From an archaeon (GTDB lineage Archaea > Thermoproteota > Nitrososphaeria > Nitrososphaerales > Gagatemarchaeaceae), in the NCBI GenBank assembly GCA_021819105.1, contig JAKASK010000001.1, positions 4,448 to 68,447 of the forward strand: a DNA stretch of 64,000 nt, written 5' to 3'. Made by a program: the position numbers and the translations under genes. The notes beneath the pieces were generated by a model. That model did not search any database. It saw only the letters and a list, made by a program, of their open reading frames with translations, and had not been told where the DNA came from. The first letter of the stretch is position 1; the number at the start of each line of letters is the position of its first letter. This document shows positions 15,595-24,031 of this stretch, one piece after another.

Positions 15595-16377
15595 CTACTG
15601 GGGCCTCTTCGCCTGCTTCCTCACCTTGAACGAATAGCTGTTCGAAGCGGGGTCGTAGTCGGTGGGGTCTGCGGCCAGCCGCTGGCCGGCGTGGTACTCG
15701 AGCATCCCCACCATCATCCCGGTGAGGAATCTGCCGAGCCCAGCGCTCACCCTCTCCCCCTTCAGAGTCGGAATAGACGAGAGCTTCACCCCGTACAGCT
15801 CGGGGGTCTCCGTGATCTCCGCCACCGCCCACCCCTGGGCCCTTATCCACGACATGATGTTCCCCAGGTCCCATGTCGCCCCGACCTTCTTCCTGTAGTC
15901 CTCCATGTCTGCCAAAGTCGCGACCGAGTAGGCCCTCCCCTGCTCGTAGGCCATGACCTCCCCGGCCGAACCGAATATCTCCACGAGCCTCCCTTCGACC
16001 TGGCCGAAGGCTGACGCGCCGACCATCAGCACCCTCCCGTCGAAGACCGTGGACATCGGGAACATGAACTCCTCGTGCATGGCTCCATGCATGGGCGCGA
16101 CCTTCACGTCCCTCACGAAGGGGAGGGATGCGAGCTTCCGCCGCAGCTCGTCCGGGCCCATCTTCGCCTTCGACAGGTCGCAGAAGAACGCGTTGGCGAA
16201 GAGCTTGGCCGCCTCGTCCACCTGCCCATGGGAAGAGATGAAATTGACGCCGCTCTGGGAGAACACCTCCGTGACCTTGTTGAGGACCCCCACCGCGTCC
16301 TCGCCTACCACCAGGACCTCGTAGACGTTGTCCCCTGGGGGCCTGGTGGACATGAGGAACCTCGGGAGGTAATCCAA
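15595..16377 (-). CDS. ACT-like plus V4R domain protein, paralogue 2
   Basis: A 260-residue paralogue of the proteins at 12693 and 19859. The ACT-like half reads YEVLVVGEDAVGVLNKVTEV, followed by the linking block HGAMHEEFMFPMSTVFDGR and a V4R-like half (VMAYEQGRAY, RFLTGMMVGMLEYHAG). Unlike its paralogues, the C-terminal half has none of the clustered cysteines, so any metal or thiol chemistry is lost. It is convergent with the ABC ATPase, with only two bases between stops. Its upstream side borders the decayed insertion element at 16.4-17.8 kb. Function unknown. Confidence 0.7.
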   Translation of the reverse strand: MDYLPRFLMSTRPPGDNVYEVLVVGEDAVGVLNKVTEVFSQSGVNFISSHGQVDEAAKLFANAFFCDLSKAKMGPDELRRKLASLPFVRDVKVAPMHGAMHEEFMFPMSTVFDGRVLMVGASAFGQVEGRLVEIFGSAGEVMAYEQGRAYSVATLADMEDYRKKVGATWDLGNIMSWIRAQGWAVAEITETPELYGVKLSSIPTLKGERVSAGLGRFLTGMMVGMLEYHAGQRLAADPTDYDPASNSYSFKVRKQAKRPQ

Positions 16378-16405
16378 CTGATTTTGCGCGATTTCTACCA
16401 GTCTT

Positions 16406-16418
16406 TAACGTTTGTTAA
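16406..16418 (+). repeat. Left flanking direct repeat of the insertion element
   Basis: TAACGTTTGTTAA here and TAACGTCTGTTAA at 17826-17838 agree at 12 of 13 bases in the same orientation and lie directly outside the inverted repeats. This fits an old target-site duplication, though both are themselves near-palindromic and could be part of the element ends. Confidence 0.4.
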
Positions 16419-16470
16419 GTCTAGGCTCCGGCAAGTTGGCGTGCCTCGGTTCCCGCCGTAAAGAGCCGGG
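16418..16470 (+). repeat. Left terminal inverted repeat
   Basis: The 39 bases at 16432-16470 match the reverse complement of 17772-17810 at 37 positions, and the outer 14 bases match at 11. This is a terminal inverted repeat of about 53 bases bounding a 1.4-kb unit. Confidence 0.75.
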
Positions 16471-16515
16471 CATTTTGAGGTGTTCTGAATCGCCGTTATC
16501 CAAGGTTCTCCCCCT

Positions 16516-17090
16516 CTATTTTGATTCCAGCCGCCTCAGCGGTGTCTTTCCGTCCAACGCTATGTGCGGCCTGAAGTAGTTGTGGAAGAGCATCATTCCC
16601 TCGATTACTGGGGAGTCATCCTCTTCAGCCCCCGCATCACCTTCTCCCTGTCCCTCGTTTCCCCGTTCTGCCTCTCCGCCTTGTTGTTGTAGATTTCGCC
16701 GTCAAACCGGGTTTCCTGAACGTGAACGGCGTCCTTGTCCACCTACTGTAACTTCTGAACGAAGGCCGTATGGTATAACTTCAGGCCATCCCTCGTCAGC
16801 TTCTTCGGAACCTTCTCGGCCACTTCCTCGGCCCGTCTGAACAGGTTGTTCGTGTCGTGGGTCTCCTTCCAGTGGGGACCTCCTGTGCTAAACTGAACCG
16901 AGTCTCGTCGTCCATCATGGCGAAGAGATATTTCCTGTTCCCCCGAATCTTCACGTAAAGCTCGTCCGCCCGCCAGTGGTCGACAAGCTGAGGGAATATT
17001 TGGTCGAGATAGCCGTCCATCAGGGAGACATACTTCCTGAACCAGTGGCCCAAGAATCGTAGGCGAGAATCTTCTGGAGTTTCACATGAT
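16516..17090 (-). pseudogene. IS6/IS240-like DDE transposase, frameshifted and truncated
   Basis: On the minus strand the readable pieces are HWRADELYVKIRGNRKYLF and MMDDETRFSLAQEV (first catalytic Asp region), then in another frame HDTNNLFRRAEEVAEKVPKK and DGLKLYHTAFVQKL, an in-frame TAG, then NNKAERQNGETRDREKVMRG, and in a third frame FHNYFRPHIALDGKTPLRRL. This order (WxxDExYVK, then the NxxER region, then the HNYxRPH tail) matches IS6-family transposases. At least two frameshifts and one stop break it. The N-terminal HTH part is missing, cut off next to the methyltransferase stop. Confidence 0.75.
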
Positions 17091-17744
17091 TCACTTCTTA
17101 AAAAGAACGAACAAGCCGTTGTTATTCAGATATTCGTAGAGTTTGATGTCTCTCCTGAGTCGAGAATAGTCTTGAACGGCTTGCTTCACCTCCGGAAATG
17201 AAACTGAATCGTGCATGGTAACTATCCCGCCGCTTCTGACGAATGGCTCATACCTCTGAAGCTCCTTCGACGTTTGCTCGTATGTGTGGGTTGTATCGAT
17301 GAATAAATGATCGATTGGAGAGTTCCACTTTGCGAAAAGGTCGTCGCCTCGGGTAAATTCCCAATATTCTTCCAAGCCATACTGCTTGATTACGTGTTTC
17401 GCTTCCGAACATTCGTCGACGTCATAACTGAATACCTTTCCTCCAATCTCCTTTACTGCCATGAGCAGTGCTACTGTGGATTCCCCGCCGCGAGTGCCCA
17501 ATTCGACAACCGTTCTTAAATTCAACTCTACCGTGAGCATGAATAGCGTAACCAAATGCTCATGAATGTCAGTTGCCTTTGAAGCATGCAGTGAGAATGG
17601 CAGAGCCGAGTCTTTGGCCGTCAGACAACTGCGGGACCACCGCATGTGTCTATATTCCGTGTCGCCTAAAAGAGCGTAAACTAACGCCTGTTTGGGATGC
17701 TTCAGTGCAAATTTCATCTCGGACATCAACATATCACTTGACAA
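17091..17744 (-). CDS. Class I SAM-dependent methyltransferase inside the insertion element
   Basis: A 217-residue Rossmann-fold methyltransferase of the CmcI/Methyltransf_24 sort. The SAM motif I reads VVELGTRGGESTVALL, followed by KVFSYDVDE (acidic ribose-binding position), DHLFIDTTHTYEQT and GGIVTMHDS. Such enzymes methylate sugars, antibiotics or small hydroxylated compounds; the substrate here is unknown. The gene is conspicuously AT-rich relative to its neighbours and sits between the transposase remnant and the right inverted repeat, so it was probably brought in as cargo. Confidence 0.8.
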   Translation of the reverse strand: MSSDMLMSEMKFALKHPKQALVYALLGDTEYRHMRWSRSCLTAKDSALPFSLHASKATDIHEHLVTLFMLTVELNLRTVVELGTRGGESTVALLMAVKEIGGKVFSYDVDECSEAKHVIKQYGLEEYWEFTRGDDLFAKWNSPIDHLFIDTTHTYEQTSKELQRYEPFVRSGGIVTMHDSVSFPEVKQAVQDYSRLRRDIKLYEYLNNNGLFVLFKK

Positions 17745-17771
17745 TGGTGATTTCCTAATAACTCTTCGGGG

Positions 17772-17824
17772 CCCGACTCTTTACGGCGGGACCCGAGGCA
17801 CGCCAACTTGACAGAACCTAGACT
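17772..17824 (-). repeat. Right terminal inverted repeat
   Basis: Reverse-complement partner of 16418-16470; the core 39 bases (17772-17810) match at 37 positions. It lies between the start of the methyltransferase gene and the stop of the GT39-like gene. Confidence 0.75.
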
Positions 17825-17825
17825 C

Positions 17826-17838
17826 TAACGTCTGTTAA
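17826..17838 (+). repeat. Right flanking direct repeat of the insertion element
   Basis: TAACGTCTGTTAA, 12 of 13 bases identical to the copy at 16406-16418; it ends six bases before the stop of the GT39-like gene. Confidence 0.4.
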
Positions 17839-17843
17839 CTGGG

Positions 17844-19802
17844 TCAGTGCCTCATCAGCACCCTGAGCCACACGGGGAGGAACCCCTTGTCGGGGAAGTA
17901 GACCAGGAAGAAGACGAAGACCATGGCCAGGTACACTCCGAGCAGCCACTTCGGGAACCACTTCTTCGAAAGCCAGTAGGCCGCCCCCATGGCGATGGCG
18001 GGGATGGCCGGGATGATGTAGAAGGGGTAGGTCACCCTTTCGCCTATGAACAGGAAGATGTACGGCACGTAGGTCCAGGCGAAGAAGATCAGGGCGAAGG
18101 CCCCGAACTTCGCCCCGGCCGCGTCGAAGGCAGGCGCCTGCTCGGCCGCGAGGGGTGGCTCGGCCCCGGGGACAGGTTCTGCCGGCGCCGGTCCAGGGAG
18201 GACGGGTTCCGCCGGCTGCACCAGCCTGCCGGCCCTGCGGGCCTTCCAGTAGCCGAAGATGTTCCAGACCACGAGGGGGACCCAGACGTAGGTGCTCCAG
18301 GTCACCAGCAGATTGGTGACGCCGTAGTACCCCACCGCGACGTACACCATGTTCCCCGGGTTGATGGTCACCGACACCAGGTAGTAGGCGACCGGGCTGT
18401 AGTAGACAAGCCAGTCCATGGGGAGTATGGGAGCCCCTCCGGGGTTGTTGGCGAACATGCACCAGTAGCCGGTGACCGGGGAGCAGGCCAGCTGCTTCGC
18501 GACCAGGCTGGACCCGTAGCTGAGTATGTAGCTCACGTTGGTGGCGAAGGTCGGCACGGACTGCGCCAGGGTGGAGTCGTAGGCCTGCAGCCCGGCCGCG
18601 AACACGACTCCGACCACCAGGGTGACCTTCAGGACCTGGTAGAGCCTCACCCACCTATCCCCCTCGTCGAAGAACAGGATGTAGGTGAGGAGCGCAAGTG
18701 CGGCGAAGACCGCCGTCTCCTTGGCGAGGCCGGCCACCCCCATGAGGACCCCGGCTACGACGTACCTGTCGAACCTCCACCACTTCAGGTTCGCGAAGTA
18801 GGCGAAGAAGGCGGCCAGGATGAAGAAGACCTGGGGGACGTCGAGGAGGCCGGCGCTCGACTGGGAGAAGAACATCACGTCGAGTGCCAGGAGCAGGGTG
18901 GCGAGGGCCGCCACCTTCTTGCTCTCCGAGAGCTTCCAAGATATCCCGAAAAGCAGCGGGAGGCTGAAGGTGCCGAGCAGGGCGGGCATGAGCCTCCACC
19001 CCACCACGTCGTACTGCCCGAAGACCGCCATCCCGGCCGCGAGCAGCGCCGGCACCATGAAGGGGTGCTCGAGGTGGCAGTCTGTGGGAGCCCCTGTCGT
19101 GGTGCACTGCTGGCCGTTGAGTATCGCCATCCCTTCAGGGACGTAGTACACCTCGTCCATGATGCAGCCGTAGGCCTGCTTGTCCGAGGCGTAGCAGGTG
19201 AGATACTGGTACTGGACCGTCACCTCGGAGGCGTTGGACGGGGCGTACCAGGTCCCCTGGACGGACGACCCCGGTCTGAGTGGCGCCGCGAACGACGGCG
19301 GGGAGCCGAACCCGTCCCCGGACAGCGGGACCCCGCCGCTCGACACGTCCAGCGAAGCGACGGCGTTCCCGCCGCTGGCGGTGACCGTCAGTTGGAGCTG
19401 GTTACCTGAGACCCCGCCCTGGACCGATATCTGGCCGTCGTGGAACCCCGCGGAAGGGTTCCCTGACACCGACCCACCGGCGAAGGCCGAGGGGCTCCCG
19501 ATCACGTAGGCATGGGCGACGAGGGTAGCCGCCGTTATGCACACGATGAAGACGACTGCCTTCCGGTGCTGCGGGTACTCACGGAGGGCGTAGTAGATCC
19601 CGTCGAGGATGGAGGCCGAGGCAAGGACCACCATCGCCCCCCCCAGGAAGTAGATGGGAGGCACCAGGTAGGCGGAGGACGTGTATGCGTGGACGTACAC
19701 CAGGACGCAGAACAGCGCGAGGGCGACGAGGGCCCCCGCGACGAGGAGCCGGATGAGGCGCCGGGGTGCGGTGCGTCTGCCGGGGGGCTCCGCTAGCTCC
19801 AT
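17844..19802 (-). CDS. GT39/PMT-type membrane mannosyltransferase-like protein
   Basis: A 652-residue GT-C glycosyltransferase with about twelve membrane helices. A first helix pair is followed by an external beta-rich domain (residues about 110-230), then MDEVYYVPEG and EHPFMVPALLAAGMAVFG, matching the acidic D-E and HP(P/F)-L motifs of protein O-mannosyltransferases. Later come VAGLAKETAVFAALALL and, near the end, YPFYIIPAIPAIAM. Enzymes of this group transfer a sugar from a polyprenyl-phosphate donor to proteins outside the membrane. The Ser/Thr-rich surface proteins in this window are possible acceptors. The inserted external domain is unusual. Confidence 0.8.
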   Translation of the reverse strand: MELAEPPGRRTAPRRLIRLLVAGALVALALFCVLVYVHAYTSSAYLVPPIYFLGGAMVVLASASILDGIYYALREYPQHRKAVVFIVCITAATLVAHAYVIGSPSAFAGGSVSGNPSAGFHDGQISVQGGVSGNQLQLTVTASGGNAVASLDVSSGGVPLSGDGFGSPPSFAAPLRPGSSVQGTWYAPSNASEVTVQYQYLTCYASDKQAYGCIMDEVYYVPEGMAILNGQQCTTTGAPTDCHLEHPFMVPALLAAGMAVFGQYDVVGWRLMPALLGTFSLPLLFGISWKLSESKKVAALATLLLALDVMFFSQSSAGLLDVPQVFFILAAFFAYFANLKWWRFDRYVVAGVLMGVAGLAKETAVFAALALLTYILFFDEGDRWVRLYQVLKVTLVVGVVFAAGLQAYDSTLAQSVPTFATNVSYILSYGSSLVAKQLACSPVTGYWCMFANNPGGAPILPMDWLVYYSPVAYYLVSVTINPGNMVYVAVGYYGVTNLLVTWSTYVWVPLVVWNIFGYWKARRAGRLVQPAEPVLPGPAPAEPVPGAEPPLAAEQAPAFDAAGAKFGAFALIFFAWTYVPYIFLFIGERVTYPFYIIPAIPAIAMGAAYWLSKKWFPKWLLGVYLAMVFVFFLVYFPDKGFLPVWLRVLMRH

Positions 19803-20641: not shown

Positions 20642-20771
20642 GAATATCGAGCCTCCTGGCGGGGTTCTTAAGAGGTGTGAAGAAGTTGTCCACTCCCCCG
20701 GCTCCCCCTCCTCCCGGCAGGCGACCCGGCGGTGTGAAACGCTGGTGTGTGCCCCATCGGAAGTTACACAG

Positions 20772-20780
20772 ACTTAAGCA
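20772..20780 (+). promoter_or_regulatory. TATA box of pilus locus 1
   Basis: ACTTAAGCA, centred about 28 bases before the in-frame TTG at 20804. It argues for that codon as the start rather than the ATG/GTG candidates farther upstream. Confidence 0.5.
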
Positions 20781-20803
20781 AAACGACAGGCCGACCCGCT
20801 CAG

Positions 20804-23800
20804 TTGAAAGCCCCCCGAGGCGGCACCAGGCTCGATCTTAGGCTCTGGGCGCTCGCCGCTCTCATCTGCTACCTCATCGTGGAGGTGCTCGCCCTGGCCG
20901 TCATGAGGGCCCCCACGCTCCCGGTCGCGGTCCTCGTCGCCGACATCGCAGGCTTCGGGGCCTCCGCGGCCATGGTAGTCCTCTCTGCCGCGGTGGTCGC
21001 CGTCGTCGCTCTGGAGGTCCTGTTCATAGCCTCGAAGCGTGCCCCCGGCCCCGCCGCCCCGGCCTCTCAGCCGGCGCCTGCCAAGGGGATCGAGCGGTCG
21101 ACGATCAACAGCCTTCTGGGGGACTCGTCGAAGAACTTCGTGGAGGTCTTCCCCCTGAAGACCGGCGTCATCAACGTATATGGCGCCATAACGAAGGAGG
21201 AGGGGGTCGAGGGGTACAGGTACCTGGTCATCGAGCCAGAGCTGACCGCCACCGAGAAGAAGCAGTTCGCCCAGCTCAACGAGCTGCTCGTCGAGGAGAT
21301 GGACGTCGACCTCCGCAGCATAGAGACCAGGGAGAAGGCGGAGGCGTTCCTGACCGGCAAGGTCTCCCAGCTGGCGCAGACCTACGGCTTCAACATCCCG
21401 AGGCCGAGCATGAGGAAGCTCCAGTACTACTTCGCCCGCGACTTCATCCATCTGGGGAAGATCGAACCGCTGATGCTCGACCCGCTCATAGAGGACATTT
21501 CCTGCGACGGGGCCAAGATCCCCATCTACGTGTGGCATAGAGACTACGAGTCCATCCCCACAAACATCGTCTTCGAGACCGACCAGGAGCTGGACAGCTT
21601 CGTATCCAAGCTCGCCTACGTCTCGGGGAAGCACGTCTCCCTCGCCCTCCCCATGGTCGATGCCTCTCTGCAGGACGGGAGCAGGCTGCACCTCACCTAC
21701 GGGAAGGAGGTCACCCAGAGGGGGAGCACCTTCACCATCAGGAGGTTCAAGGCCGACCCGTTCACCATCGTCGACCTCATCAAGTACAACACCCTGAACC
21801 CGGAGGTCGCAGCCTATCTCTGGTACCTCGTCGAGAAGAGGCTCGCCATGCTGGTCGCAGGCTCCACCGCCTGCGGGAAGACGACCTCCCTGAACTGCCT
21901 GTCCATGTTCGTGGCCCCCGGCCAGAAGATAATCAGCATCGAGGACTCCGTAACCGGGGACGCCGAGGTCCTCGTCCACGAGTCTGGCGTCACCCGCAAA
22001 GTGAAGATAGGTCACCTAGTCGACTCCGCGATCGACCGCGGGGGCGTCGTGACCGAGCTCGGGCACGAGCTCGCAAGGCCCGACGACCTCCGCGTGCTCA
22101 CGATGGGGGAGTCAGGGCGGATAACCTGGGCCCCTTGCACCGCCCTGATCAGGCACAGAGTGACGAAAGAGTTCGTCAAGCTGACGACCCGCATGGGGCG
22201 GACCATCGAAGTCACCTCGGACCACTCTCTGTTCGCAGTCGGGAGCGACGGGAGGGTCGAGGCCGTACCCGGGAAGGAGATCGCGCCGGGCACCTACCTC
22301 GCCACCCCCAAATCTATCGAGATGCCGGGAAGGCCCGTGTCGTTCGACCTGGAGAGTCTCCAGGAGTTCTCCCAGCCCCGGTTTGAAACCCGGGGAGTGG
22401 AGAACCGCAACGGGACGACGGTCCAACAGCTGAGGGTCAACGCGACCCGCAGCCCGCTCTCAGTCCCATCCGTCATCGAGCTGGATGACGACCTGGCGTT
22501 TCTTTCGGGACTCTGGCTCGCCGACGGGTTCTATGATTCGGCCTCCGTAGGGTTCTCTGTGGGGCGCAAGGACGTCGAAGCCAGGCTGCGGAGAATCACT
22601 GAGAGGTACGGGGCGCATCTGACGCGCCATGGCGGCGGCGTCTCGCTTCTCATCCGCTCGGTCCCCTTCAGGGCATTCCTAGAGAAGTCCCTGTGTCTGA
22701 CCGGGGACGAGTACTCTCGCCGTGTGCCCGGGGCCTTCTTCGGGGCGCCCCAAGGCGTCGTAGCGTCTCTGCTGAGAGGATACTTCGCAGGCGACGGCAA
22801 CGTGAGCGCCGGCGGGGTCCACGCGGAGTCCGCGTCCAGAGAGCTGCTCCTCGACCTTCAGACCCTCATCCTGAGGTTCGGGGTCAGACTGAGGGTCGGG
22901 ACCAGGAAAGTCGGAGCCCATGGGGGCGTCGGCACCTACAGGGCCTCGATCGCCGGGACGAGCCAGGTCTCCCTGTTCAGGTCGCTGGTCGGCTTCGAGC
23001 AGGAAGGCCGGATGTTGGAGGTTCGCCGACGAAGCAGGGCGCCGAAGTACCACCTCGACCCCATACCCGTCACCGGCACCGCTGCCGCCGAGCTGAAGAG
23101 CCTGAGGTGGCGCAAGAAGCTCGGTCCTCTCGGGCAGAGGGTGAAGGCTGGGGTCCGCAGGGGGGTCGTGTCGAGGCAGACCATCTTGGAGCTGGCAGAG
23201 GAAAGGCCGGAAGCGAAGGAATCCAGGGCATACATGCTCGCGGCGAGCGACTTGTACTTCGACGAAGTGGTTCACGTGGAGAGGGAGACCCGCGAGGCAC
23301 AGGTGTACGACCTCAGCGTGCCGGAGACGGGGACCTTCGTCGCGAACAACATCGTCTGTCACAACACCCCCGAGCTGTCTCTCCCCCAGGAGAACTGGAT
23401 CCAGGAGGTCAGCCGGGCGGAGGGGTCGGTGGGCGAGATTACCCTCTTCGACCTGGTCAGGAACGCCCTGAGGCAGAGGCCCGACGTCATCATCGTGGGC
23501 GAGATCAGGGGGAAGGAGGCGTTCACCCTCTTCCAGGCGATCAGCACCGGCCACGGCGGCATGTCGACAATCCACGCCGACTCCGTGGAAGCGGTGTTCA
23601 ACAGGCTGACCACCGAGCCAATGAGCCTCCCGAGGAGCCTGGTGGGGACGAGCCTCGACTGCATCGTGATGCAGCTGAAGCTGAGGATCGGGGACAGGTC
23701 GGTGAGGCGGGTCGTGAGCGTCAACGAGATACTCGGCTACGACAACAGGACCAACGAGATGGTGATGAACGAGGTCTACAAGTGGGACCCGGTCACCGAC

Positions 23801-24031
23801 AGGCTCAACGCCACCGGGAGGAGCAGGCTGGTGGACAAGATCAACCAGAGGTACGGCCTCAGGCCGGAAGAGATCAGGCGTGACCTGGACTCGAGGAAGG
23901 TATTCCTCGAGTGGCTGGCGAGCAAGAACTTCCGCTCCTACAAGGAGGTCAGCCAGTACGTCCAGGAGTTCTACGGCAACCCCTACGCCATGGCGAGCAG
24001 GGCGAGGACCGAGTTGGAGGCCGCAACCTGA
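20804..24031 (+). CDS. Type IV pilus/FlaI-like secretion ATPase with N-terminal membrane helices and an intein
   Basis: The assembly motor of pilus locus 1. Starting at TTG 20804 it has 1075 residues: two hydrophobic helices (WALAALICYLIVEVLALAV and MVVLSAAVVAVVALEVLFIA), a VirB11/FlaI N-domain, then the RecA-like ATPase. Walker A is GSTACGKT (Lys359). The Walker B-like strand IISIED is split by a 473-residue intein and resumes at TPELSLPQENW; then come DVIIVGEIRGKEAF and STGHGGMSTIHAD. The spliced protein is about 600 residues. Membrane helices at the N-terminus are unusual for this family. The stop overlaps the next ATG (ATGA). Confidence 0.9.
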   Translation: MKAPRGGTRLDLRLWALAALICYLIVEVLALAVMRAPTLPVAVLVADIAGFGASAAMVVLSAAVVAVVALEVLFIASKRAPGPAAPASQPAPAKGIERSTINSLLGDSSKNFVEVFPLKTGVINVYGAITKEEGVEGYRYLVIEPELTATEKKQFAQLNELLVEEMDVDLRSIETREKAEAFLTGKVSQLAQTYGFNIPRPSMRKLQYYFARDFIHLGKIEPLMLDPLIEDISCDGAKIPIYVWHRDYESIPTNIVFETDQELDSFVSKLAYVSGKHVSLALPMVDASLQDGSRLHLTYGKEVTQRGSTFTIRRFKADPFTIVDLIKYNTLNPEVAAYLWYLVEKRLAMLVAGSTACGKTTSLNCLSMFVAPGQKIISIEDSVTGDAEVLVHESGVTRKVKIGHLVDSAIDRGGVVTELGHELARPDDLRVLTMGESGRITWAPCTALIRHRVTKEFVKLTTRMGRTIEVTSDHSLFAVGSDGRVEAVPGKEIAPGTYLATPKSIEMPGRPVSFDLESLQEFSQPRFETRGVENRNGTTVQQLRVNATRSPLSVPSVIELDDDLAFLSGLWLADGFYDSASVGFSVGRKDVEARLRRITERYGAHLTRHGGGVSLLIRSVPFRAFLEKSLCLTGDEYSRRVPGAFFGAPQGVVASLLRGYFAGDGNVSAGGVHAESASRELLLDLQTLILRFGVRLRVGTRKVGAHGGVGTYRASIAGTSQVSLFRSLVGFEQEGRMLEVRRRSRAPKYHLDPIPVTGTAAAELKSLRWRKKLGPLGQRVKAGVRRGVVSRQTILELAEERPEAKESRAYMLAASDLYFDEVVHVERETREAQVYDLSVPETGTFVANNIVCHNTPELSLPQENWIQEVSRAEGSVGEITLFDLVRNALRQRPDVIIVGEIRGKEAFTLFQAISTGHGGMSTIHADSVEAVFNRLTTEPMSLPRSLVGTSLDCIVMQLKLRIGDRSVRRVVSVNEILGYDNRTNEMVMNEVYKWDPVTDRLNATGRSRLVDKINQRYGLRPEEIRRDLDSRKVFLEWLASKNFRSYKEVSQYVQEFYGNPYAMASRARTELEAAT
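21947..23365 (+). other. Intein with LAGLIDADG endonuclease in pilus ATPase 1
   Basis: A 473-residue in-frame insertion, residues 382-854 of the precursor. It begins with Ser in SVTGDAEVLVHE (block A), has the TSDHSLFAV block B, LAGLIDADG-type helices LSGLWLADGFYD and LRGYFAGDGNVS, and ends VYDLSVPETGTFVANNIVCHN (block F and G; only the end motif VCHN is diagnostic). The +1 extein residue is Thr. It sits right after the Walker B-like IISIED, a highly conserved site, as expected for homing inteins. All splicing blocks look intact. Confidence 0.9.

Follow-up and report, generated by a model that had tools for sequence, protein, structure and literature searches.

The insertion sequences of the IS6 family are best known from bacteria, as small, single-gene elements that mobilise resistance genes. 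A review of the family gives a length of 0.7–1.8 kb (700–1760 bp), one gene, terminal repeats of 15–20 bp and target duplications of 8 bp, and names a single passenger-carrying member, ISDsp3, amongst nearly 160 (PMC7986276). A thaumarchaeal survey reports no detection of passenger-carrying composite transposons in archaea, and in the open-licence literature we found no later description of a passenger-carrying archaeal IS6-type family.

We describe a 1.4-kb unit at about 16418–17824 of a 64,000-nucleotide stretch of archaeal DNA, analysed as a whole and referred to here as the window, that sits between an ACT-like gene and a gene of the PMT family (Table 1). The unit is very probably a degenerate member of a family of cargo-carrying IS6-type transposons of this archaeal phylum; in this copy the first half of the transposase is missing and a methyltransferase of foreign base composition occupies its place. 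With its 1.4 kb, its 54-nt repeats and its second gene it departs from the IS6 norm of a short, single-gene element with 15–20-bp repeats. A first-pass annotation of this DNA had proposed a transposable unit with 53-base inverted repeats, 13-base flanking direct repeats, a dead IS6-like transposase and an intact, AT-rich methyltransferase. All four components are found as described, the inverted repeats with a length of 54 nt, and the proposal as a whole agrees with the ends, the dead transposase, the foreign gene and the empty sites reported below; it falls short in that the 8-bp duplication expected of IS6 is absent.

Table 1. Features of the window unit and its flanks, with positions in the window, and the cargo of related elements
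Feature	Position	Strand	Description
Flanking gene, weak ACT domain	15595..16377	-	adjoins the PMT gene in relatives
Left target-duplication copy	16403..16418	.	CTTTAACGTTTGTTAA; limits uncertain by a few bases; single copy in relatives' empty sites
Left terminal inverted repeat	16418..16471	+	54 nt; IS6-type tip GGCTCCGGCAAGTT from 16424; tip diverged
Transposase remnant	16486..17053	-	C-terminal half, three frames, one stop
Methyltransferase gene, intact	17091..17744	-	217 aa; Methyltransf_24 E 7e-19, weakly CmcI
Right terminal inverted repeat	17771..17824	-	54 nt; tip GGTTCTGTCAAGTT, minus-strand reading from 17818
Right target-duplication copy	17823..17838	.	CTCTAACGTCTGTTAA; exact limits uncertain; single copy in relatives' empty sites
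Flanking gene, PMT/PMT_2 family	17844..19802	-	adjoins the ACT-like gene in relatives
L041 cargo			HEPN-AbiV
L046 cargo			N6/N4 DNA methylase with Mrr
L053 cargo			GIY-YIG
L148 cargo			ParB-DUF488
L149 cargo			Fic
L153 cargo			N6 methylase with HsdR-N and specificity domains
L157 cargo			proteasome-like protein
L159 cargo			NYN
L160 cargo			N6 methylase and specificity subunit; also proteasome-like protein
L162 cargo			Eco57I-type methylase

The two arms of the unit are 91% complementary over 54 nt, a value that no second inverted pair in the 2.8 kb searched comes near. Both carry the GG tip and the conserved CTGT motif that are traits of IS6, in diverged form on the left; each tip (16424 on the left, 17818 on the right) is set 6 nt inward of its repeat end, and the family tip excludes the outermost six bases (AGTCTA) of each repeat. 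The ends are of the same family as those found on contig C5 of the same genome and in relatives within the genus. It could be argued that each arm comes from its own IS6-type copy, the two copies having once enclosed the gene as a pseudo-compound transposon and since shrunk to their outer parts, since bacterial IS6 elements form such structures (PMC7986276) and neighbouring copies and solo tips occur in the relatives. This origin is, however, scarcely credible: the arms are 91% alike mutually as against 80% to the C5 end, the best of the other ends seen, and compound IS6 structures hold direct copies (PMC7986276), whereas here one remnant and one inverted pair make up a single unit.

Flanking the unit are the direct repeats TAACGTTTGTTAA (16406–16418) and TAACGTCTGTTAA (17826–17838), which match at 12 of 13 positions and can be extended to a match of 15 in 18. 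They represent a true target duplication, because relatives that lack the insert have a single copy. The unit itself is an insertion, as seen from the empty sites of five relatives of the genus, in which the two flanking genes are neighbours, about 50–160 bp apart, without the unit and without the methyltransferase. In the closest of these (G019, with 70% protein identity in the left gene) the junction reads CTTTAACGTTTGTTTGACGGGTCAGTGCC and holds one copy of the motif that stands, slightly diverged, on both sides of the unit in the window. The duplicated motif, TATAACGTTTGTTA, is nearly palindromic and is conserved upstream of the left flanking gene in the relatives; it is perhaps an operator.

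The length of this duplication, 14–18 bp as against the 8 bp typical of IS6, counts against our preferred reading; a search at the unit for a duplication of 8 bp found none. Just outside each tip lie six extra matching bases (AGTCTA/TAGACT), which together with the duplication occupy 16403–16423 and 17819–17838. Both features would suit insertion by a different transposase or integrase, one that makes longer duplications and whose ends overlap the IS6-type tips. We nevertheless consider the action of such an enzyme very unlikely, given that neither a further transposase gene nor another known type of end came to light and that every related end, that at C5 included, begins at GG, with 8-bp duplications where these are readable.

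What is left of the transposase aligns, in its three frames and across one TAG, to residues 191–367 of a 425-residue relative, the first 190 or so residues being missing. The match of this remnant to DDE_Tnp_IS240 is weak, that of the intact relative strong (E 1.6e-16), and it is through the remnant that the unit is assigned to the IS6/IS240-type DDE transposases. Over 56–57 residues it is 75–79% identical to the two nearest intact transposases in the genus.

The place of the transposase's N-terminal half is occupied by the methyltransferase, whose GC content of 46.3% compares with 65–67% in the surroundings and which is collinear over its full length with an archaeal homologue of 48% identity. 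The gene is absent from the other 45 genomes of the taxonomic family (46 searched), and a search of 398 genomes from across the phylum added only two with clear relatives (48% and 36% identity) and one further match that is short and weak; a scan of genome contigs returned only remote bacterial and haloarchaeal relatives. A viral carrier was considered and dropped: in viral contigs the transposase had no relatives at all and the methyltransferase only remote ones. The protein is Methyltransf_24/CmcI-like and no DNA methylase, which sets the unit apart from mobile restriction-modification units. Its closest homologue adjoins genes that read, in translation, as a flippase-like membrane protein and a glycosyltransferase-like protein, and because of these neighbours our best guess at the acceptor is a sugar or surface glycan.

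Since no second copy of the methyltransferase was found between such ends, the argument that it was transported as cargo is drawn from its position and its composition. A plain element of the family might instead have inserted and died, the methyltransferase replacing part of the dead transposase later and by an unrelated event, in which case it was never cargo; its location where the N-terminal half of the transposase belongs and the lack of any other element with this gene would both be in keeping with such a history. Yet elements of the family normally carry passengers, some of which (in L041 and L047) precede the transposase and are in line with it, as in the window unit, and the unit is framed exactly by its own ends and one duplication, with no second insertion seen inside, so that a later replacement appears unlikely. 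The first-pass annotation took an intact cargo beside a dead transposase to suggest that selection had kept the cargo; this may be so, or the gene may be younger than the inactivation of the transposase.

If the unit is, as we prefer, a degenerate cargo-carrying element, the starting point would have been either a cargo carrier or a derivative in which the methyltransferase had by then taken the place of half the transposase. The insertion of this element between two genes that adjoin in the relatives would have been the work of its own transposase, at a time when this was still intact, or, we infer, of another acting in trans, and the methyltransferase would have travelled as cargo. After insertion the transposase remnant would have decayed further, leaving a unit that is no longer self-mobile. 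The window genome (914 kb in 12 contigs) is only 65% complete, and a helper transposase can therefore be neither demonstrated nor excluded.

Intact relatives of the remnant are transposases of about 380–425 aa that match DDE_Tnp_IS240 and in which the catalytic domain is preceded by an invariant CxC...CxH motif and two CxxC pairs. A profile built from six of them matched 47 of the 398 genomes, representing 23 genera across the phylum. Where a locus had wide flanks, an element was delineated by a pair of inverted tips that matched and were adjoined by an exact 8-bp direct duplication, a strong tip match being one of 18 or more of the 24 tip bases. Such a match was obtained at 18 of 21 loci outside the genus, compared with 8 of 418 pairings of unrelated flanks, and eleven further elements were delineated within the genus, several with weaker tip matches. 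The outcome is a set of about 30 elements with GGTTCTG tips and exact 8-bp duplications, the length known from IS6; at 2.2–6.9 kb (median 3.2 kb) and with passengers, they lie outside the IS6 description of 700–1760 bp and a single transposase gene. Repeats related to those of the window are thus linked to intact transposases phylum-wide. An ungapped repeat search had suggested that the transposase relatives lack terminal repeats, a result overturned by the gapped-repeat and tip-plus-duplication searches.

The mobility of two of these elements is also seen in their flanks. When joined, those of the L047 element match uninterrupted DNA in one genome (G006) at 88%, and those of the L046 element match uninterrupted DNA in many genomes at 64–73%. 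The elements of the GC-rich genus have a GC content of 49–56%, against 57–65% in their flanks. IS6-type elements delineated with base precision occur in many genera of one archaeal phylum, ammonia oxidisers included, and the family constitutes a small, precise vehicle for the movement of single genes in these archaea. As a separate observation, the right flank of L047 and the left flank of L039 (in G025 and G014) show that different elements of two species have inserted into one shared intergenic region, beside a small gene common to both sites and in opposite orientation; this region is a possible insertion hot spot.

Most ends of the family begin with an outer tip, GGTTCTG plus some 15 bases, and a similar copy follows further in, giving bipartite terminal repeats of 50–60 bp. 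The best offset of the inner copy clusters at 26–29 and 36–40 bp, and the inner copy is closer to the tip than are control stretches (Wilcoxon p 4e-7). The difference between these spacings, about one helical turn, suggests that the transposase contacts the DNA at two places on the same face.

Amongst described elements, IS6 (IS26/IS240) and in particular its zinc-finger clades h and i share with the archaeal elements the DDE_Tnp_IS240 domain, GG tips with CTGT, an N-terminal zinc-finger extension and, in the relatives of the window unit, 8-bp duplications (PMC7986276). The archaeal elements differ in their greater length, their several genes and their bipartite repeats, and the window copy differs in its 14–18-bp duplication. 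ISDsp3 and the transporter IS (tIS) are alike in holding a non-transposase gene in an IS (PMC7986276), and both the window methyltransferase and the cargo of the relatives lie, in the same manner, between two ends of one IS. ISDsp3 is, however, by its description one bacterial member with one hypothetical gene, as opposed to many archaeal members with diverse and often defence-like cargo. Tn7-like and other defence-cargo transposons resemble the family in precise insertion and in single-copy cargo that includes restriction-modification genes (PMC8649781); the archaeal elements have one IS6-type DDE transposase and no accessory transposition genes, and are much smaller. As far as the open-licence literature goes, the archaeal cargo-carrying IS6-type family is apparently undescribed.

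Nearly all of the delineated elements have convincing open frames beyond the transposase, the shortest (L156) being doubtful. As judged from domain matches, the cargo appears rich in restriction-modification genes and in others that resemble defence genes (Table 1). Many other cargo frames have no domain match, and these are a place to seek new functions. In addition, a small AbrB-like frame lies near the transposase in four elements (L046, 3702–3977; L053, 5271–5495; L159, 6884–7066; L162, 7337–7585) and perhaps encodes a regulator or antitoxin; a Pfam search with one of these frames gave no match.

The related ends on contig C5 of the window genome (G000) bound a 1666-bp unit (L054, 5124–6789) that has IS6-type tips and no transposase, its sole gene encoding a TnpB with a Cas12f1-like_TNB domain. 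It is flanked by an exact 8-bp duplication, GAGCTAGG, and has empty sites in relatives; these two features set its true right end, 325 bp outside an inner repeat. The first-pass annotation had held that the same repeats unlinked to any transposase would speak against a transposable unit. Such repeats do occur at C5, but they provide no counter-example, because the exact duplication and the empty sites identify the C5 unit as a non-autonomous mobile unit. Of 25 TnpB loci tested, six, C5 amongst them, have such tips together with 7–8 of 8 duplication bases, against 2 of 600 cross-pairings. Ends of this kind therefore occur as insertions without an internal transposase and, by analogy, the last move of the window unit may likewise have taken place without a working one.

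In twelve TnpB units (L054, L181, L182, L184–L186, L190, L192, L194, L198, L200 and L201) the tip follows closely after the end of tnpB and is preceded by a strongly conserved nucleotide block. The block, GTGAAGCGGTGAAGGGGAAC...GGTAATCCTCAGAGTCGATGCC, lies within the last ~150 nt before the tip and ends about 35–75 nt from it; it is a candidate guide-RNA scaffold beside IS6 ends. A TnpB with this domain is a likeness to the IS200/IS605 and IS607 elements. IS607 is described as having neither inverted repeats nor duplications (PMC6188088), whereas the C5 unit and its relatives are bounded by IS6-type tips and flanked by 8-bp duplications. These units raise the possibility that an IS6-type transposase and an RNA-guided nuclease work as partners, which is directly testable.

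For IS605, a role of TnpB in retaining or restoring the element once it has transposed has been proposed. A broader reading, which we offer tentatively and regard as doubtful, would place the window unit in a distinct archaeal superfamily of DDE transposons that has bipartite ends, with their two copies spaced at about 27–28 or 36–40 bp (one helical turn of difference), and routinely carries passengers (restriction-modification, abortive-infection-like and other) in ammonia-oxidising archaea and their relatives; in the window's own family it would also include stable, transposase-less TnpB units, with TnpB aiding retention or restoration of the element after transposition.

As to the host, neither the window genome nor the three tested relatives of its genus have archaeal AmoA, which all tested genomes from three other families of the order do have; given this absence, the window genome most likely represents a sister lineage of the ammonia-oxidising archaea that does not itself oxidise ammonia. 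Two minor observations concern the neighbourhood of the unit. Just before the window, at the start of the contig, lies a second remnant of the same transposase family, which is N-terminally truncated (L060, G000:C10:3-269). Within the window, at 20747–24031 (+), a pilus/secretion-type ATPase gene has a frame with a long insert whose ends, read from the translation, are intein-like (...SVTGDAEVLVHES... to ...VANNIVCHN/T).
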